Source: a virus. From it: a DNA stretch of 32,606 nt. The first letter of the stretch is position 1, and each line of letters starts with the position of its first letter. This document shows positions 372 to 32,606 of this stretch, one piece after another. The DNA is taken from positions 1 to 32,606 of the IMG/VR virus record IMGVR_UViG_3300007960_000096, one strand, 5' to 3'. The notes below the pieces were generated by a model, which searched no databases, was not told the origin of the DNA, and saw nothing but the letters and a program-made list of their open reading frames with translations. Made by a program: the position numbers and the translations under genes.

Positions 372-1715
372 ATGACAGGTTATATTAACACAATTGCAGA
401 CTTAGAAGCACAAACATACGGCGTAGGAAACTTTGGAGCAGGTAATTCTCTCTTAAAGCAAGCAGGTCTTGTTGGCGGTATTCATACCGGCCACGATACC
501 TCTTTAGGTCTTGGTTCCGCCACAACCGGAATTAGCGACGTTACTGCGCTTTACAACGTAGTTTACGGACAAAAGGTTTGGTCTATGCTTAACCGTGAAT
601 GCAACGCTCTTTCGATGATTTCAAAGCGTCCCTATACTTCTTCCGGTTGGCGTGTCCTTAAGTCCCGTCCTGCCGGTGGTAGCGGAAATCTCTTTGATGT
701 TGCGAGAAGCGGCACATTGAATGATGCGTTATTGGGTGATGATGCTCCCCGCGCTGATGCTATCGGTGGTGTTCCTGAAAATGCGGGTCTTTCAACCGCT
801 GCTGATGGACTTGGGCCAATTGCACCAACATACGCTCAACTCTTCACTTCTCCGAAGGTTATTGCTCACCAATTCGACTTCTCTGAGTTGGCTATGGAAT
901 TGGCTCAAATTGATGACGGTATTGGCGACATTCGCGCTCAAATGCGTGAAGACATGGGTAAGCACCATTCTGAAGTTCAGAACAAGATGCTGGTTATGCC
1001 TCTTGAAAACTACGGTGAAACTGTCGCAATGCCTCACATTGAGCGAAACTACACATCTTTGATGAAGGTCGTTACAAGCCGTGCTGAATTATTAGCACTT
1101 GATGGTGGTGTTCTTGCTACTGACGCGCTTTCAACTACTAACAACCTTGGTAAGATTTACGGTAGTGAGCGAGCAACTGCGGCTTCGTTCTTAGATGCTG
1201 AAGTGGACTTTGGTGCTGATTACACCGCAGGTAGTGTTCGCGCATTAACCCTTACTTTGCTTAACAGCATGATTCGCAACCTGCGTCTTTCGGGTGGTTC
1301 GCCAAAGGTCATCTTAACCGGATATGATACAATTCAGTCCATTGCTGACCTTCTGCAAAGCCAAGAGCGTTTCATGGACCGTAAGGAAATTGTTCCGACT
1401 GTGAACGGTGTTCGTGGCGTAAAGGGTCAAGAAGTTGGTTTCCGTGTTTCGACATACTACGACATTCCTCTGATTCCGGTCAAGGATATGCCTGCTACAT
1501 CCGGTGCTTCGACCACAATTACGGATATGCTCTTCCTTGATACCGACCACCTTTGGTTGTCTGTGATGAAACCCACACAATACTTCGAGGACGGTATTTC
1601 CAACGGAAACCCCTTCGGTGTCGGAACCCTCGGCAACCGTGCGCTTTACCGCACAATTGGTGAAATTGGTTGTTCCTTCTTCAAGGGCCAAGGAAAGATT
1701 ACCAACCTGCAATGA
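372..1715 (+). CDS. Major capsid protein, HK97-fold type (probable)
   Basis: A 447-residue protein starting at ATG 372 behind TGAGGTGATTTAAC, a strong Shine-Dalgarno. Length, position after a scaffold-like gene and before small head proteins, and composition (few Cys, many Gly/Ala/Thr, an N-terminal flexible region followed by a mixed alpha/beta core) fit an HK97-fold shell protein. The N-terminal 50 residues are Gly-rich and low in charge (LGLGSATTGISDV), as in arms of this fold. A helical stretch at about residues 170-215 (FDFSELAMELAQ, then DMGKHHSEVQNKM) could be the spine helix. The codon use is richer in C and G third bases than most other genes here, as expected for a highly expressed product. 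I cannot confirm the fold from sequence alone; assignment rests mainly on context. Confidence 0.75.
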   Translation: MTGYINTIADLEAQTYGVGNFGAGNSLLKQAGLVGGIHTGHDTSLGLGSATTGISDVTALYNVVYGQKVWSMLNRECNALSMISKRPYTSSGWRVLKSRPAGGSGNLFDVARSGTLNDALLGDDAPRADAIGGVPENAGLSTAADGLGPIAPTYAQLFTSPKVIAHQFDFSELAMELAQIDDGIGDIRAQMREDMGKHHSEVQNKMLVMPLENYGETVAMPHIERNYTSLMKVVTSRAELLALDGGVLATDALSTTNNLGKIYGSERATAASFLDAEVDFGADYTAGSVRALTLTLLNSMIRNLRLSGGSPKVILTGYDTIQSIADLLQSQERFMDRKEIVPTVNGVRGVKGQEVGFRVSTYYDIPLIPVKDMPATSGASTTITDMLFLDTDHLWLSVMKPTQYFEDGISNGNPFGVGTLGNRALYRTIGEIGCSFFKGQGKITNLQ

Positions 1716-2371: not shown

Positions 2372-2421
2372 AGCACTATTCTTAAGTAGTGGGTTCGCGT
2401 AGGATAAATAGAGGCGATAGC

Positions 2422-2706
2422 ATGGGTTCCTTAGGCGCGTGTCGTAGTAGCGGTGTTATGACTACATCTCAAACAGTAGTTTCAGGTCGTGCAACATTAG
2501 TTAGCATTCATGCTGCTGAAGTTGCCGGTGCTGCGGCAATTGTGAAGATTTGGGATAATACCGCTGCTTCAGGAAAAGAATTGGCTAGAATTGTTCTTGC
2601 TGCTAATCAAACAATTGAGTTTGATATGCACGGTGTTCTTTGCACTAACGGTATTTACTTTGAAGAAGATACCGGAGCAGTAGCAGTTTCTGTCGAATAT
2701 GCGTGA
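2422..2706 (+). CDS. Small beta-sandwich structural protein
   Basis: ATG 2422 is preferred over the in-frame GTG 2389 because GAGGCGAT lies at the right distance before it. The 94-residue product has an even beta-strand pattern (ATLVSIHAAEV, AAIVKIWDN, ELARIVLAANQTIEFDM, VAVSVEYA). Proteins of this look, with the WDN...ELA.I...QTIEFD pattern, are frequent in structural modules of marine tailed viruses, probably as head-decorating or virion surface components. This is recognition of a pattern rather than a firm family call. Confidence 0.5.
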   Translation: MGSLGACRSSGVMTTSQTVVSGRATLVSIHAAEVAGAAAIVKIWDNTAASGKELARIVLAANQTIEFDMHGVLCTNGIYFEEDTGAVAVSVEYA

Positions 2707-2715
2707 GGTGTTATC

Positions 2716-3105
2716 TTGGCTGCATTAAATCAAGATACCCGACTCGTCATGACTATTCTTTTCTGTGGTTGTCTTAGTGGAGCAAATGTCTTCTTTTATG
2801 CAAAGTATGGAATTGATTTTCCATATACCCATCTTGCTCATTCAATTCTTTTTGGATTAGTTACTGTTGGAGCAATTATGATTATGAAGGCAGTTGGGGA
2901 TTTATTCCTAAACGAGCGCATCGAGTTGTTCTTGCTTGATAGGAAGATTGAAACCTATTGGGCTAGAATGAGTCGAGATGAAACCCAAAGAAAGAAACTC
3001 ATTGAGACTTCCAAACAGTTTAAGAATGATTTTAACCGAACACCTCAATTTTCTTCTTATCAGGAAAATTCAGTTGGTTCTTCATTTTTAGAGGCACTAC
3101 AATGA
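2716..3105 (+). CDS. Two-pass membrane protein, unknown
   Basis: TTG 2716 follows TGAGGTGTTATC, in which the TGA is the stop of the preceding gene. The product is 129 residues with two clear hydrophobic segments at about residues 10-30 (VMTILFCGCLSGANVFFY) and 39-62 (LAHSILFGLVTVGAIMIM). A charged cytoplasmic-type helix follows (ERIELFLLDRKIETYWARMSRDETQRKK), then a Ser/Gln-rich tail. A membrane protein between capsid and connector genes is unusual. It is followed at once by a second small membrane protein and a membrane-anchored GTPase, so the three may act together on the host membrane, for example in assembly, entry or release. That role is inference. Confidence 0.65.
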   Translation: MAALNQDTRLVMTILFCGCLSGANVFFYAKYGIDFPYTHLAHSILFGLVTVGAIMIMKAVGDLFLNERIELFLLDRKIETYWARMSRDETQRKKLIETSKQFKNDFNRTPQFSSYQENSVGSSFLEALQ

Positions 3106-3117
3106 AGGTGATGGAGT

Positions 3118-3333
3118 TTGCTCAATGATTTGTTGGGTATGAATGACATTGACTTTATGTATAATCAAAGCCGAGCGCATTCAGCCGACTTGATGTTTCT
3201 TAAACTAAAGGCTTGGTTTTACGGAATTACATTTTCTGTAGCCACTTTGTTACTAGGAAACATTGGTGGAGTATTCGGTATAAATATTATGGGATGGATT
3301 ATTGATAAAATTTTTGGAATTTTTGGTCATTAA
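3118..3333 (+). CDS. Small membrane protein with amphipathic C-terminal helix
   Basis: TTG 3118 is chosen because the site TGAAGGTGATGGAG precedes it and the frame has no better start. The 71-residue product has a soluble N-terminus (about 30 residues), one membrane segment at residues 32-56 (WFYGITFSVATLLLGNIGGVF), and a final stretch (MGWIIDKIFGIFGH) that can form an amphipathic or membrane-lying helix. Small proteins of this shape include holins and membrane-remodelling factors, but there is no decisive motif. It sits 15 bases upstream of the GTPase gene, with which it is probably co-translated. Confidence 0.55.
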   Translation: MLNDLLGMNDIDFMYNQSRAHSADLMFLKLKAWFYGITFSVATLLLGNIGGVFGINIMGWIIDKIFGIFGH

Positions 3334-3348
3334 GGGGGTTTTAGATGA

Positions 3349-4011
3349 ATGTCACTACTGACAGGTTTTGCTGTAATTGTGACGGAGGCTGTTTATGCCT
3401 TTTACAAAAGAGTCCACGCAATCAATTTTGGAGTCTATGGAGCAACAATGGTTGGAAAGACAACACTACATCATCAATTGAGAACTCGTGGTGAAGTCCC
3501 TCAAATTAATCATAGAACTGTAGGAAGAGGAAAGGCATCAAGAAAATACGTTAAACTAGATGGTGAAGGGCATACTGTTAAAACCTCAGATATCGGTGGA
3601 GAAGCAATTTATTGGAAAGAATGGATTAACGATATAAGAGAAAGAGATGTTAAATATATTATTTTTATGATTGACCACAGGCATTTAGATAATGATTCTA
3701 ATATGGACCACCAAGTTGCATGGAAGTTTTTAGTTGATGAATTAACCAAACAATTCTGGCCGGATGGAAAAAAGAAGAAAGAAACAGATTACCCTATTGC
3801 AGTTGGTCTTTGGGCAAACAAATATGACATTTGGGGAGAAAAATACCCAACAAAAGATTCAATAGAGAAACATAAAATTTTTGAACCGTTTAAATATGGA
3901 ATGAGAAAACTTAACGAGAGAGGTATTCCTTGTTACAGATATATTATTTCTGCAAAGTCTGACCCTGAAATGGTTTATAGAGGCATATTCACAATGATAA
4001 AAGATTACTGA
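3349..4011 (+). CDS. Ras/Arf-like small GTPase with N-terminal membrane anchor
   Basis: A 220-residue P-loop GTPase. All diagnostic boxes are visible: G1/Walker A GATMVGKTT at residues 31-39, a Thr in the likely switch I (RTVG, residue 57), G3 DIGGE at 81-85, G4 NKYD at 157-160 and G5 SAK at 201-203. The DxGG form of G3 and the MIDHRHLD segment resemble Arf/SR-beta-type GTPases. Residue 85, where these enzymes usually have the catalytic Gln, is Glu, so hydrolysis may be slow or need a partner. Residues 3-19 are hydrophobic (LLTGFAVIVTEAVYAFY) and precede the G domain directly, as the single membrane anchor does in SRP receptor beta. The start ATG 3349 lies after GGGGGTT. A small GTPase in a viral head module is odd; its neighbours are two membrane proteins and several orphans. 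GTP binding is well supported, the role unknown. Confidence 0.85.
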   Translation: MSLLTGFAVIVTEAVYAFYKRVHAINFGVYGATMVGKTTLHHQLRTRGEVPQINHRTVGRGKASRKYVKLDGEGHTVKTSDIGGEAIYWKEWINDIRERDVKYIIFMIDHRHLDNDSNMDHQVAWKFLVDELTKQFWPDGKKKKETDYPIAVGLWANKYDIWGEKYPTKDSIEKHKIFEPFKYGMRKLNERGIPCYRYIISAKSDPEMVYRGIFTMIKDY

Positions 4012-4021
4012 GGTGTTAAAG

Positions 4022-4255
4022 ATGTGGTTTGATATACTTAAAAACAAAATGACGAGAGAAGAGTTTGAAAAAAGAGGAAGGCAGATATTAGAAATGCCTT
4101 TTGGTAATGAAACAGATAAAAGAGATGCTCAGAGTCTTTTTAATGGAATGTTAAAAGATGGAGAAAGTAGATTCTTATCATATGCAAATGCTATAAGAAC
4201 TATGGAAGACTTTAGGGATGGAAAGATTTTAGATTTAGCACCGGCAGATAGGTGA
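4022..4255 (+). CDS. Small helical protein downstream of the GTPase, unknown
   Basis: ATG 4022 is placed by TGAGGTGTTAAAG, which overlaps the stop of the GTPase gene. The 77-residue product is charged and predicted mostly helical (KMTREEFEKRGRQILEMPF, DAQSLFNGMLKDGESRFLSYANAI). It has no Cys, no membrane segment and no known motif. Its tight coupling to the GTPase gene suggests a partner or regulator of that protein, but the sequence does not show this directly. Confidence 0.55.
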   Translation: MWFDILKNKMTREEFEKRGRQILEMPFGNETDKRDAQSLFNGMLKDGESRFLSYANAIRTMEDFRDGKILDLAPADR

Positions 4256-4259
4256 TAAA

Positions 4260-4910
4260 ATGTATCAACAACCACTATTAGTGGGAATGCATTCTGCTCA
4301 GGCTTCTTTAGCCTTTCTTCCGAAGTTACCAATGTATCGTTCTCCCGGTCAAATTGAAGAATATAAATATGACCAAATAAAACCTAAGAAGCAACTCAAA
4401 GAAATCAGAAAGGTTTTACTTCCTGAGAAAAAGAAGTTCTTTATCTTCCGCTTTGGAAAGAAGTTTAACCTAAAAGACCGTTGTGTTGTTTGTGGTGTTA
4501 ATCATTCTTGGGATGCAGGAGATTACTTAAGACCGCCTATTCCCCTAGATGAAGTCCATAAAGGACGCCCTCTTCGTGGAACATACTGCCCTAAACACGC
4601 CGCTATCTTCATGCAAATGGAAATGCTAGAACAACAGATTCTTGCTGAAGAACACGGTCTTGAGTTTAGAGGATTTAAACCAAAGATGCCTTCTATTGTT
4701 AATAAAGGCCCACTTAAAACCTTAACACAAGAAGACGTTATTTCACTTACCGCCGCCGGATGGTTGATAAAGGCTCCCTCCCCTGTCGAATCTGAGGAAG
4801 GGAAGCAGACCGCTATGAGCCTTTTAGCGGAAATGAATGCCTCAATGCAAAAACTTAACTTTTTGGTAAATAATGGAGTTGAACTCGATGGGACAGAAAG
4901 ACGTAATTAG
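4260..4910 (+). CDS. Zinc-finger-like protein of the head module, unknown
   Basis: ATG 4260 follows AGGTGATAAA, where the TGA is the previous stop. The 216-residue product contains a probable treble-clef or zinc-ribbon site made of C75-x2-C78 (RCVVCGVNHSW) and C110-x2-H113 (GTYCPKHAA), with a basic run before it (PEKKKFFIFRFGKKFNLKDR). The C-terminal part (residues 115-216) is helical and could be a coiled coil (MQMEMLEQQILAEEH, LLAEMNASMQKLNFLV). The finger and basic patch point to nucleic-acid or protein binding. In this position it may be a virion or assembly protein. I do not recognise a named family. Confidence 0.6.
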   Translation: MYQQPLLVGMHSAQASLAFLPKLPMYRSPGQIEEYKYDQIKPKKQLKEIRKVLLPEKKKFFIFRFGKKFNLKDRCVVCGVNHSWDAGDYLRPPIPLDEVHKGRPLRGTYCPKHAAIFMQMEMLEQQILAEEHGLEFRGFKPKMPSIVNKGPLKTLTQEDVISLTAAGWLIKAPSPVESEEGKQTAMSLLAEMNASMQKLNFLVNNGVELDGTERRN

Positions 4911-5520
4911 TGCGATTACAACGCAAAGCGATACGACCTTTAAAACGGTCAATAACTTGCTTTCACTTCAAGACAATCATGTTGAAGAATTCTTTCAATA
5001 TCATGGAAAGCAATTCCTTGAAATGCTTGAAAAGATGATGGAAGACGTAACTGAAAGAGTCGTTAGTCAAATGCTTGCAAAGTTAGCATTTACTGTTGAA
5101 GCAAATAAAATCACAATTGACCCTGATGCTATGCGTGATTTTGAGAAAATAACCAAAGAAAACATTGACTTGGATATTGAGAGGATTTTACAATCTGCTT
5201 TGAATACAGAAGTGATAAACCAGCGCAAACTTGCGAAGCAACAATACCTTGAATCTCAAGGCTTTAGTGGTGCTTCTCCATCTGCCGGTGCTTTTGGTGG
5301 TGCTATGATGGGTGGTGCTGTTGCCGGTGGCTATCAAATGCAGGGAGCCATGCAAAACGGTTCAGGATATCCCGTCCCACCTTCGGGAACAGACGGATAT
5401 GGGCGTCCTTATTGGATTGACCCAAATAACGGACAAATGAGTTATGAACCACCACAAAGCGGGTTACATTTGATGCAAGTTGCTCAGAAAGGAGCGGCTT
5501 GGGCAAAATGGCTAATGTGA
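4888..5520 (+). CDS. Helical protein with Gly-rich C-terminal region, unknown
   Basis: ATG 4888 is chosen over ATG 4873 because GGAG at 4875 can serve it; either start overlaps the end of the zinc-finger gene. The 210-residue protein has a helical N-terminal half (LLSLQDNHVEEFFQYHGKQF, EMLEKMMEDVTERVVSQML) and a low-complexity middle of Gly, Ala, Met, Gln and Ser (residues about 132-165, including FGGAMMGGAVAGGYQMQG). After that comes a Pro/Tyr/Gly segment with YGRPYWIDPNNGQ. Such tails are seen in virion surface or flexible linker proteins. No homologous family is evident to me. Confidence 0.55.
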   Translation: MGQKDVISAITTQSDTTFKTVNNLLSLQDNHVEEFFQYHGKQFLEMLEKMMEDVTERVVSQMLAKLAFTVEANKITIDPDAMRDFEKITKENIDLDIERILQSALNTEVINQRKLAKQQYLESQGFSGASPSAGAFGGAMMGGAVAGGYQMQGAMQNGSGYPVPPSGTDGYGRPYWIDPNNGQMSYEPPQSGLHLMQVAQKGAAWAKWLM

Positions 5521-29090: not shown

Positions 29091-29978
29091 TTACCACCAC
29101 TCATCTAGTGTTAATTGTATTCTATTCGTTCTGATGCTTGAAGTTTCCCACCCCATAGCCTTATACACAGGTTCTGCTTTTTTAATTACAGACTCAGCAT
29201 AATACTCATAATCTGCATTCCACTTATCAAACTCTTCATAAGTCGAAGCAGAAACATATTCCACCGGCTTCTTTTCCTTTGTTAAGGGATGGGTGTAAGT
29301 TTTACCCTGTGCATTTACCTTCAAGAAAAGGTAAGAATCATCAAACTCAGTATCTGTGTGTTCCCAAGCATAAAGAACACCTGCGATACCTTCTTTGATT
29401 GAAGGTTTTTTGTATTCTAAGGTAACGAAACTCGATGAATCTTTACCGCACTTTTCGCACCATTTTGAATGGAGCATATTTCTCAATTCATGATGTTTTT
29501 TACAGTCAGGGCATTTTACTGTCATCCTGTTGTCTTTTAGACGACTTCTCTTGATAATCGAAGCCAATGGAACATCGCCTTTCAGAACAGATTGATAAGT
29601 CTCATAGAGATAAGACGTAATTTCTGCCTGAGATTTTTGAGCAGCCCACATTTTCAGAACAGTTGTCTGAACTTCCTTCGAGAGTTTTGTTTCGCTAACT
29701 CTTTTTGCGGTGTAGCCGGTCATCGTGAATTTTTCTTTGTCTAAAAATACACCATCTTCCCAAGTAATCATGCCCGCGTTTCGATTCTTAGTTACACCCA
29801 CACCAAGAGCAGAAAAATACTTCTCAAACTCAAGGACAACGGGGTGTTCATCAAGATTCATTACGTTTGGAAAAATCTTACGAACTCGTTCTTGAATAAG
29901 AGCAACTTTTTCAAGTGCTTCTTCAACAGAATCAATCTGAACATAGATTGAATCTGTGTGTCCATAAACTACTTTCAT
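29091..29978 (-). CDS. polB: Family B DNA polymerase, C-terminal part (motif C, thumb, PIP box)
   Basis: ATG 29978 overlaps the stop of the coiled-coil gene (ATGA); TTG 29987 is an alternative. The 295-residue protein begins practically at catalytic motif C, KVVYGHTDSIYV (residues 2-13; D9 is the key acidic residue; His replaces the usual first Asp). It continues with the thumb region: KNRNAGMITWEDGV, TMTGYTAKRVSETKL (KKRY-type), and SVLKGDVPLASIIKRSRL. A four-cysteine zinc ribbon, C156-x2-C159 and C174-x2-C177, is inserted in the thumb. The chain ends QLTLDEWW (288-295), a PCNA-interacting (PIP) motif. It must combine with the N-terminal part to form an active enzyme, as in Methanothermobacter, where PolB is also two polypeptides. 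Confidence 0.85.
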   Translation of the reverse strand: MKVVYGHTDSIYVQIDSVEEALEKVALIQERVRKIFPNVMNLDEHPVVLEFEKYFSALGVGVTKNRNAGMITWEDGVFLDKEKFTMTGYTAKRVSETKLSKEVQTTVLKMWAAQKSQAEITSYLYETYQSVLKGDVPLASIIKRSRLKDNRMTVKCPDCKKHHELRNMLHSKWCEKCGKDSSSFVTLEYKKPSIKEGIAGVLYAWEHTDTEFDDSYLFLKVNAQGKTYTHPLTKEKKPVEYVSASTYEEFDKWNADYEYYAESVIKKAEPVYKAMGWETSSIRTNRIQLTLDEWW

Positions 29979-30193
29979 TTCCACCAACTACCATTTCCAT
30001 TATAATGCAAGAATTTTGAAGCAGGTGCTTCATGCATTTCTTGGATTTCTCGAATTGCTTCCCATATAGTTTTGAATCCTTCGATGGCGTTAAGAATATC
30101 TTCTCGCTCATCTTCCAATTCATTGATTCTATGAATCGCTTCTTCAAGTCGTTGTTCCAACAGATTTATTCTACTTTCATTATCTAGTTTCAT
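29975..30193 (-). CDS. 72-residue coiled-coil protein between polymerase parts
   Basis: ATG 30193 has an upstream GGAGGCGAATTGA and overlaps the previous stop. The product is almost one long helix with heptad-like spacing (NLLEQRLEEAIHRINELED, NAIEGFKTIWEAIREIQEM) and a short Asn/Gly/Trp tail. It is not similar to an intein or endonuclease. Since it lies between two halves of one enzyme, it could be an assembly factor or simply an inserted small gene. No known family. Confidence 0.6.
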   Translation of the reverse strand: MKLDNESRINLLEQRLEEAIHRINELEDEREDILNAIEGFKTIWEAIREIQEMHEAPASKFLHYNGNGSWWK

Positions 30194-30393
30194 TCAATTC
30201 GCCTCCAAAGTGCTTTTTGTGTTTTAACTACATTCGGGTGTCTGCTAAGAAAAAAAGATACCTGTCTTTGATTCTGCACAAACTTTTTCATTATAGGCTT
30301 GGACCTTTCCATAAATACATGAGATGAAAATTCCTCACCTACTTTAAATTCACTTTCTAAGATATCATTCATTCTTTCTTTTATTGTTATCAT
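30190..30393 (-). CDS. 67-residue basic protein, possible winged-helix
   Basis: ATG 30393 overlaps the stop of the polymerase N-part (TAATG), with AAAGGAGATGG upstream. The product is basic in its second half (FMERSKPIMKKFVQNQRQVS, FFLSRHPNVVKTQKALWRR). The pattern of a helix, then QVSFFLSRHP and a final KALWRR strand, resembles small winged helix-turn-helix proteins of archaeal viruses. A DNA-binding role is plausible but unproven. It is the first of two small genes that separate the polymerase parts. Confidence 0.55.
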   Translation of the reverse strand: MITIKERMNDILESEFKVGEEFSSHVFMERSKPIMKKFVQNQRQVSFFLSRHPNVVKTQKALWRRIE

Positions 30394-32057
30394 TATACCA
30401 TCTCCTTTGCTGCAAAGGCGGCTTCACGGATTGCTTCTCTCGCAGATGCGGTAATAGAAGCGGCTAATTCAACATCAGCCCAACCAAATCCTTGATAAGC
30501 AACGATGCCGTAAAAAGACGCCATTAGTCGCTTAACTGCCATTTGATTGTTATACCACTTACGGTATTCTAATTCATTACCCGCTTCGCGGGACTCTCTC
30601 ATCCTCCGCTTATAATCATTACGAAGATTCTTCAGATGAAGAACAGAACGTGGAAGAAGACCCAATTCATCTGTTTTATAGTAGCGCATTTCAAATACCC
30701 TTTCTTCAGAGAAATCACGAGGAGTAAGAATATTTACTCCAAACTCTGTTTCTTCAAATGACTTAGTTTCCCAAGAAATGTTCCGAGCAATCATCATTGA
30801 AGGATATAGACCTGCGAAGTCAAACGCCGCTACGTTGAGATGCAATCCAAACGTCCCTTCTGATGTTGGGTCGTAAATCATAGCACCTTCATATTCTTCT
30901 CGTTCTCCATCCTTAGAACCTGTTGGGGCCTTCCACCAAGCATTACGCATAAAGTAAATAGAACCCATGTGGCTCGCAAAGAAACAAGCATCAAAAGGAG
31001 CAATAAGAAGTCGTTGAAGTGAAATGATTGCTTCGCTTGTGAAGTTAGTTTCGTCAATCTTACGCAGAATATCAACGTCAACAAGAGCATATTGCAAATA
31101 AACGTCTGTGTCCTCTAACCATCCACGGCGATAAAACTCGTTAGGGTCTGTAAACTTGGAAGTCCAAACCTTACCTTGTCCGAAAAGAGTATTTGATACA
31201 TAGTCAAGAGAAAGACTCGGAAGGGTTCCGCGTTGTGAATCATTCCATTGACGTTCAAAAGCAAGGTCAAGATTCAAGGTAATACGTCCCTTGATAGGTT
31301 GAGAAATAGGAGCGAATCCTTTATCGCCCTTGTAATACTCAAAACCATCACGGGTTTTCTTAATTCCATCAACTGCATAAACGGGACTCAACTCGTTAGG
31401 GTTCAATCCATTAACACAAAGACGGTTCAGCAAAACAGGAAGGTCGAACTTTAGACCAAACCAAGCAATCAGCATATCAGGGTCTTTTGCTTGAACGGAC
31501 TTAACAAACGAAGCAAGCATATTTTTCTCGGAAGAAAAGATAAAGACTTCTGTATCAAATCCTTCAATCGCAGGATGCACAAACTTAGACTCTTCAGGAA
31601 ACCAAGTCCAAAGATAGAACCGCTTGTCATAGTTATCATAAACAGAAATAGCAGTAATAAAATCGTGGTATTCTCCACCTTGTTGCCATTCCATATCCCA
31701 ATACCACTTACGCATATCATATTCAGGTAAAGAGTCTAACTCATCAACGCAATACCTAAAGTGCAAAGGAACATCGGCTTCATATGTTTCGGGAAATAAC
31801 TTCCTTGCTTCACTAACATCATCAGCCTGTTCAACATAGACCTTAGTTAGAGAAATACCTCGAAGATTTGTTTCTTCAACATCTTCATATTTGAACTCTC
31901 GCTCGATGTATTTAGTTGGTCTATACTTACTAGGCTTCTTTGCATCTGAAGGAATATAGAAATACGGGCGAAATTCGACAACTTCTGTCTTTTTCTCTCC
32001 GTTTTCTCTCCAAGATTTAAAGATATGAAAACCTGTATTTAATTTGCTAATAATCAT
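30393..32057 (-). CDS. polB: Family B DNA polymerase, N-terminal part (exonuclease, motifs A and B)
   Basis: ATG 32057 is preferred over GTG 32066, because GGGTGTGTGAA serves it; the clamp gene ends at 32059. The 554-residue protein has an archaeal PolB N-terminal domain, then a 3'-5' exonuclease: Exo I WYWDMEW (D121, E123), Exo II WFGLKFDLP (F204, D205; the usual Asn is replaced by Phe) and Exo III YALVD (Y323, D327). Polymerase motif A is AFDFAGLYPS (D413) and motif B KRLMASFYG (K509-G517; Ala in place of the usual Asn). The chain stops about 38 residues after motif B, in the helix before motif C, ending FAAKEMV. Motif C is on the downstream gene, so this part alone lacks a catalytic aspartate. 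Confidence 0.9.
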   Translation of the reverse strand: MIISKLNTGFHIFKSWRENGEKKTEVVEFRPYFYIPSDAKKPSKYRPTKYIEREFKYEDVEETNLRGISLTKVYVEQADDVSEARKLFPETYEADVPLHFRYCVDELDSLPEYDMRKWYWDMEWQQGGEYHDFITAISVYDNYDKRFYLWTWFPEESKFVHPAIEGFDTEVFIFSSEKNMLASFVKSVQAKDPDMLIAWFGLKFDLPVLLNRLCVNGLNPNELSPVYAVDGIKKTRDGFEYYKGDKGFAPISQPIKGRITLNLDLAFERQWNDSQRGTLPSLSLDYVSNTLFGQGKVWTSKFTDPNEFYRRGWLEDTDVYLQYALVDVDILRKIDETNFTSEAIISLQRLLIAPFDACFFASHMGSIYFMRNAWWKAPTGSKDGEREEYEGAMIYDPTSEGTFGLHLNVAAFDFAGLYPSMMIARNISWETKSFEETEFGVNILTPRDFSEERVFEMRYYKTDELGLLPRSVLHLKNLRNDYKRRMRESREAGNELEYRKWYNNQMAVKRLMASFYGIVAYQGFGWADVELAASITASAREAIREAAFAAKEMV

Positions 32058-32058
32058 T

Positions 32059-32606
32059 TCACACACCCGCTACATACGGAGCCTTAATGATTCTCCTATC
32101 GTCAGCAACGACAAATAAAGGAGCCTCATCTAAGACATAAAAGGTAAGCATTTGGTCTTTCTCAAAGAAGTTATGGATTGGCCCTGAAAACTCAACAGTC
32201 GCAGGTTCACCACAACGAAACACCGTTTGGATTGTTTCCTTGTAATTGTTCGTTGTGTTAAACGTGCTTGAGAACTCTAAACTTTCTTCCTTAAAATCTA
32301 ATTTAAAGACACCGGAACCAACTAATTCACAAGAAGAAATCACATCAGAAAATACTGATGCTTGAACCATAAAGCAACCTTCATACTTAGCAAGACCGAC
32401 TGTTGGTAGTTTGTCTGCTTCATACTCAATAGATGCTTCATTTATGGCTTTACTCGCTCTCATGATTGAAGGTAAAGATGCCCATTCAACTACTCTAGGA
32501 AGGGAAGCCTTCTTAGAACCCGAAGAAATACTTAGGAAATCACCTCTTTCTAGGGAAACAATATCACCAAATTTCTTCAGGTAGTCAATAATAGGGGCAG
32601 ACTGTC
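32059..32606 (-). CDS. Sliding clamp, PCNA-like (partial, 5' end outside)
   Basis: The frame is open to the right edge of the window; an internal ATG at 32463 is not the start, because coding sequence of clamp type continues upstream of it (IIDYLKKFGDIVSLERGDFL). The visible 181 residues fit the second half of a PCNA: the strand pattern MVQASVFSDVISSCELVGSG, LEFSSTFNTTNN and ATVEFSGPIHNFF, then PLFVVADDRRIIKAPYVAG at the C-terminus, where PCNA has its last strand and the LAP-type end. It directly precedes and overlaps the polymerase operon, whose C-part ends in a PIP box. Divergence is considerable, so identification relies on pattern and context. Confidence 0.6.
   Translation of the reverse strand, partial: QSAPIIDYLKKFGDIVSLERGDFLSISSGSKKASLPRVVEWASLPSIMRASKAINEASIEYEADKLPTVGLAKYEGCFMVQASVFSDVISSCELVGSGVFKLDFKEESLEFSSTFNTTNNYKETIQTVFRCGEPATVEFSGPIHNFFEKDQMLTFYVLDEAPLFVVADDRRIIKAPYVAGV

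Follow-up and report, generated by a model that had tools for sequence, protein, structure and literature searches.

A Ras-superfamily GTPase module among the capsid genes of putative magroviruses of marine archaea

The window, meaning the whole 32.6-kb fragment of viral DNA analyzed here, carries a major capsid protein (MCP) gene followed by a run of small genes on the same strand (Table 1). Four of these, encoding two membrane proteins (denoted mem1 and mem2), a small GTPase, and a small helical protein, had been described in an earlier note as one unit. All four reading frames lie where that note placed them, the last being open from 4013 or 4022. The coupling of neighbors by overlapping stop codons and ribosome-binding sites, also part of the earlier description, is present at all three junctions. 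The stop codon of mem1 adjoins the ribosome-binding site of mem2. That of mem2, TAA, falls within TTAAGGGGGT and precedes the ATG of the GTPase gene by ~15 nt, and the GTPase gene in turn ends inside TGAGGTG, ahead of the ATG at 4022. Because of this last arrangement, 4022 is a likelier start for the fourth gene than 4013.

Table 1. Genes of the capsid region of the window and their place in the module.
Feature	Position	Strand	Remarks
Major capsid protein (MCP), HK97 fold, SU10/Druskaviridae-like	372..1715	+	Anchors synteny
Small protein preceding the module, possible capsid decoration protein	2389..2706	+	Weak major-head PHROG match, E 0.012
mem1, module member; two TM segments, charged helical tail	2716..3105	+	129 aa; segments 10-28, 43-61
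mem2, one TM segment, module member	3118..3333	+	71 aa; segment 37-55
Module core: small GTPase of the Ras superfamily, hydrophobic helix at the N-terminus	3349..4011	+	220 aa; G1-G5, fold, sister homologue
Tagged accessory protein, begins MWFDILK, not a module member	4022..4255	+	Variable insertion between GTPase and Zn-site protein
Zn-site protein (CxxC ... CxxH; CCCH), module member	4260..4910	+	Cys/His ~99% conserved, 77 sequences
Coiled-coil-like protein, Gly/Met/Gln-rich tail, module member	4873..5520	+	In 46/46 contigs

The fragment appears to come from a magrovirus, one of the tailed viruses that infect archaea of Marine Group II/Poseidoniales, and is probably Aoguangviridae-like. The family is proposed because a Druskaviridae-related MCP, a split PolB, a GroEL-type chaperonin, and a genome of ~92 kb match the published profile of the Aoguangviridae, a Poseidoniales-associated family of the order Magrovirales (PMC10768690). 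The chaperonin and the genome size are observed in close relatives only, on contigs of ~92 kb where the chaperonin scores as a divergent GroEL type. The MCP matches Pfam SU10_MCP (1e-6) and a PHROG major head family (1e-20) and is 24-25% identical to those of the Druskaviridae haloviruses HCTV-1 and HVTV-1. PolB occupies two minus-strand genes (30393-32066 and 29091-29987), the break immediately preceding motif C (YGHTDS). The stretch between the PolB halves, within 29091-32066, holds two small ORFs, of 67 and 72 aa.

The GTPase belongs to a unit of different extent from the one first described. Among 46 contigs collected by their MCP, just 2 have a detectable gene 4022, and the unit extends instead to the Zn-site and coil genes. 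As judged by gene order and conservation, mem1, mem2, the GTPase, the Zn-site protein, and the coil protein are a core magrovirus module and not a stray host gene. The five genes follow the MCP gene in this one order, wherever the contig reaches, in 80 relatives found through the GTPase. Collecting contigs by the MCP avoids selecting by the GTPase itself, and among those with at least 3.6 kb downstream all five are present in 46/46. The gene at 2389 is kept upstream of the module in nearly all relatives and in the same 46 contigs. Directly adjacent placement holds for mem1 and mem2 in 79/79 and for mem2 and the GTPase in 66/79, the remaining 13 genomes having inserted genes between the latter two. 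The GTPase is present in 17/17 long contigs, at one copy per genome except for two on a single 184-kb contig. This IMG/VR contig of 184,733 bases (L020 and L043) holds two different copies of the module together with two chaperonins and is probably two joined magrovirus genomes. Values of dN/dS range from 0.03 to 0.09 across mem1 (0.03), mem2, the GTPase (0.057), and the Zn-site protein, a stronger purifying selection than that on the MCP (0.118). Chance is excluded because of these values and because of the synteny in both the relatives and the MCP-picked contigs.

A distant match in a contig from a bacterial bin (L087), with a GTPase 32% identical, opens onto a second virus lineage, probably magrovirus group A/Apasviridae, which has strong thermosome-type chaperonin genes. 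L087 and L086, the two matches in a genome collection, are magrovirus-like contigs binned as ‘Cytophagaceae’ and ‘Maricaulis’ MAGs, a placement that is likely mis-binning. In nearly all of 81 loci of the second lineage, the order is TM-TM-GTPase-Zn-coil followed by a small TM protein, and a large terminase gene lies some 8 kb beyond the module. Comparison of the lineages by hhalign gives 100% for the GTPase and 96% for the Zn-site protein. A weak hhalign match (E 4e-4) and the matching gene position suggest that the coil proteins are homologous too. For mem1 and mem2, hhalign found no homology to the TM genes of the sister clade, and only position and build agree; a permutation test on the TM proteins ranked a mismatched pair first by z-score and is hence uninformative. 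Of the co-occurrence of four genes that the earlier note had offered for checking, that of mem1, mem2, and the GTPase is borne out in the relatives and the MCP-picked contigs, and TM-TM-GTPase recurs in the sister lineage. The GTPase was never seen alone or in scattered contexts, nor did it cluster with non-membrane cellular GTPases lacking an anchor, the two outcomes named beforehand as speaking against such a system, and its synteny in both lineages rules out a host-derived auxiliary gene of that kind.

The five G boxes read from the sequence at the outset are present residue by residue: G1 is G31-ATMV-GKTT39, G2 is T57 in RTVG, G3 is D81-IGG-E85, G4 is N157-KYD160, and G5 is SAK at 201-203. 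They are conserved in 80/80 relatives, the exceptions being Tyr159 of G4, replaced by Phe in three, and Ala32 of G1, replaced by Ser in nine. The sister clade keeps the boxes except for G5, which reads AT[KRN]. Residues invariant in both lineages include G28, Y30, G31, GKTT, T46-x-GE, R56-T57 of switch I, D81, G84, W89, W92, D95, R99, D109, and NKxD. Judged by its residues, the GTPase looks functional. The replacement of the catalytic Gln by Glu, pointed out in the earlier note, holds within the window clade, where E85 (the Gln61 position) is Glu in 80/80 relatives. At the same position the sister clade varies among Gln, Glu, and Asp (Q38/E14/D7), which rules out the substitution as a family hallmark. 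Glu is thus a trait of the window clade, and by this alignment the catalytic position is not strictly fixed. Ras carrying Q61E can still hydrolyze GTP, and a Glu at this position is therefore compatible with activity.

Pfam alone is weak for the window GTPase, giving MMR_HSR1 at 17.2 bits and SRPRB (PF09439) at 15.5 of 25 bits, both below cut-off, with Arf (PF00025) not listed; on sister-clade members Arf reaches up to 14.8 of 22.3 bits. The product is identified as a real Ras-superfamily GTPase because of its motifs, the conservation of G1-G5 in the 80 relatives, and its predicted structure. Modelled by AF2 from the two-clade alignment, the protein reaches pLDDT 79.7 and pTM 0.78, and residues 2-22 form a helix set apart from the rest; the single-clade alignment gives a poor model (pLDDT 62). 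Foldseek places Rab/Ras structures first (Rab33 E 1.1e-9, TM 0.68 of target, identity 16-19%), and the best 50 matches in its viral library come from giant viruses of eukaryotes, save one unnamed entry. Of the initial label Ras/Arf-like, the first half stands by motifs and fold; Arf membership does not, with Pfam weak and the structure nearest Rab/Ras. Arf-type likeness of the motifs (GKTT, RTVG resembling PTIG, DIGG[EQ], W92) was judged by eye. Membership in the curated Arf, SRPRB, and MMR_HSR1 families fails by scores below cut-off where these are shown, and MglA membership fails on D81 of G3, invariant in both clades, whereas MglA has Thr78 there. The GTPase is treated as a separate family within the Ras superfamily, in no curated small-GTPase family.

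Annotated phage records hold no match to the GTPase with either clade as the query, and neither do the records of two Druskaviridae and of two further archaeal viruses. A genome-collection search found no close cellular homologue, the profile search covering genomes other than those of the Poseidoniales hosts. These results bear on a possible role in host remodelling, in which the GTPase would mimic a cellular Arf/Rab-like switch and, as a host-takeover factor, reorganize the host membrane, division, or secretion. The Ras-superfamily fold is consistent with such mimicry, as is the predominance of giant viruses, carriers of Rab-like proteins, among the viral structure matches. However, the GTPase is never seen apart from the head cluster, and both genome-collection matches are virus-like contigs in bacterial bins instead of cellular relatives, which leaves host remodelling rather improbable.

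The N-terminus of the GTPase is a hydrophobic helix (residues ~2-22, about 18-20 residues long) that is conserved in the two lineages and in which G6 and A8 hardly vary. Its mean hydrophobicity is high and its moment moderate. It is borderline for a TM helix, and in the window lineage a conserved Glu13 lies inside it. The sequence supports a membrane link and would fit a helix inserted in the membrane or lying on its surface. The membrane anchor of the earlier note thus survives as a conserved hydrophobic helix and is weakened by its borderline character and Glu13. The same borderline character, together with the insertions that split mem2 from the GTPase in some genomes, would suit a soluble checkpoint in capsid, neck, or terminase assembly, with the membrane proteins as unrelated operon neighbors. 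The TM-TM-GTPase order in two lineages at different genomic locations and the conservation of the helix in both argue against this, and a soluble checkpoint seems very improbable. The membrane proteins themselves recall an exit device, in which mem1 and mem2 would be holin-like or budding proteins and the GTPase would time lysis or membrane remodelling. Two small TM proteins with charged tails do have a holin-like build, and their genes are on the structural strand. However, no lysis enzyme is recognized nearby, no holin family is matched in Pfam or PHROG, and Zn-site and coil proteins are atypical lysis partners, so that timing of exit appears quite improbable.

The fourth gene begins with a short tag, W-x-x-[ILV]-[ILV]-K (MWxx[IV][LI]K), which in the window clade heads 58 of 687 gene families against 0.26 expected, the expectation being taken from internal windows of the proteins. 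The codons of the tag vary, and once it is removed the proteins sort into 37 groups that show no detectable similarity to one another. In the sister clade a different version, PFDxAWxLLK, heads 51 families (3.8 expected) in 38 groups. Tagged genes are all on the head-gene strand and encode small, otherwise unrelated proteins; 20 of these have no match in Pfam. Further examples are at L025 2486 and 10669, L054 3814 and 4994, and L063 1448 and 1633, and in the sister clade at L143 197-3594 and L289 2989-4857, and there are many more. In phage T4, a conserved short N-terminal tag, the capsid-targeting sequence, is carried by diverse internal proteins (PMC3012670, PMC5694885). Both tags are short N-terminal peptides on otherwise unrelated proteins, and by this analogy the magrovirus tag is probably a capsid-targeting or protease signal. 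Because of this resemblance, the product of gene 4022 is probably packaged cargo, its gene having been inserted next to the module, and not a partner of the switch. The tag may deserve separate study.

An S78 prohead protease is encoded just upstream of the MCP gene in relative L025. The N-terminal region of the MCP carries LLK[AQ] near residue 28 in 57/61 distinct MCP N-termini, and this LLK (window 372-480), resembling the end of the tag, is a candidate maturation cleavage site. The head module of L025 also includes, just upstream of the prohead protease, a gene (L025:3339-5852) for a protein of 838 aa in which Pfam recognizes an ATP-dependent DNA ligase domain (7.6e-30).

Packaged cargo brings up an entry device, with module proteins in the virion acting at the membrane of a new host during genome delivery and the GTPase gating a mem1/mem2 channel. 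The module lies among virion genes, its coil protein weakly matches a PHROG ‘virion structural protein’ (E 0.001-0.004), and the genomes carry many tagged proteins that resemble packaged cargo. The tag, however, is on no module protein, and the searches with the module proteins find no tail or ejection-protein homology. A function in entry is accordingly held to be unlikely.

The reading tentatively preferred, at a confidence well short of even, is that the GTPase acts in head assembly or packaging as a GTP switch docked at the membrane. It is favored because the window lineage has the module beside the MCP gene and the sister lineage has it near the terminase gene, which makes head building or packaging the common denominator, and because of the precedent of T4, whose prohead assembles bound to the host membrane and is released from it before packaging (PMC5694885). 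In this scheme, mem1 and mem2 would form a platform in the host membrane on which the GTPase would sit through its N-terminal helix. The GTP state might then recruit the Zn-site and coil proteins, providing a link to the prohead, portal, or terminase, and hydrolysis could release the particle or mark completion of the step. The whole would be a GTP-timed version of T4-type membrane-bound prohead assembly, which is a guess. Several points count against assembly: gene order alone cannot separate it from entry or exit, the N-terminal helix is borderline for spanning a membrane and has the conserved Glu, the TM proteins of the two lineages show no detectable homology, and the cultivated Druskaviridae relatives have no GTPase match, which means that head assembly in tailed archaeal viruses is possible without one. 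A broader claim is doubtful, namely that magroviruses possess a dedicated GTP-driven TM-TM-GTPase-Zn-coil membrane machine, essential to building or delivering the tailed virion and with no phage counterpart, that would work with a lineage-wide tag loading dozens of accessory proteins into the head.

The hosts of magroviruses are among the most abundant archaea in surface seawater; to our knowledge, no magrovirus has been cultured, and their biology is known from genomes only. From their gene content, the head-tailed viruses of these commonest archaea all seem to carry a Ras-type switch and two small membrane proteins among their capsid genes. As far as can be told, such a switch has not been described for any tailed virus in the literature that could be searched. 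The magrovirus papers within reach mention no GTPase, in line with the earlier view of an undescribed system, and an unnoticed annotation in other magrovirus papers is possible. GTP may control some part of virion assembly, entry, or exit at the host membrane and, if so, a tailed virus makes use of a kind of control well known from membrane traffic. The finding is relevant to the question of how early, in archaea and their viruses, small GTPases acquired a link to membranes, and the five genes are open to expression and testing outside the uncultured host.

Known systems resemble the module in part. We know of no GTPase in T4 assembly; membrane-bound prohead assembly of T4 is alike in the proposed membrane step of head assembly, an analogy with no homology seen. 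Arf, Sar, and SR-beta appear to share GKTT, the switch I motif GE...xT[IV]G, the switch II motif D[IV]GG[QE] followed by Trp, and perhaps an N-terminal membrane-type helix, SR-beta having an N-terminal TM region (PMC8358228). The viral GTPase differs from them by falling below the Pfam cut-offs, by ranking Rab/Ras first in structure, by its own signatures around switch II and G4, and by its place in a viral head operon. Rab and Ras provide the best Foldseek matches (Rab33 E 1e-9), yet the viral protein is 16-19% identical to them, has a P-loop and switch motifs that look Arf-type, and bears its membrane element at the N-terminus and not the C-terminus. The MglA/MglB polarity switch is likewise a single-domain prokaryotic Ras-type switch, but MglA lacks the G3 Asp (PMC4316618) that is invariant in the viral GTPase, which has no recognized MglB/Roadblock neighbor. 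The Ras/Rab-like GTPases of giant eukaryotic viruses are virus-encoded members of the same superfamily and account for almost every leading structural match in the viral library. These are named after eukaryotic Rab, Ran, and Ras, whereas the magrovirus GTPase is a core gene in the head cluster of a tailed virus.
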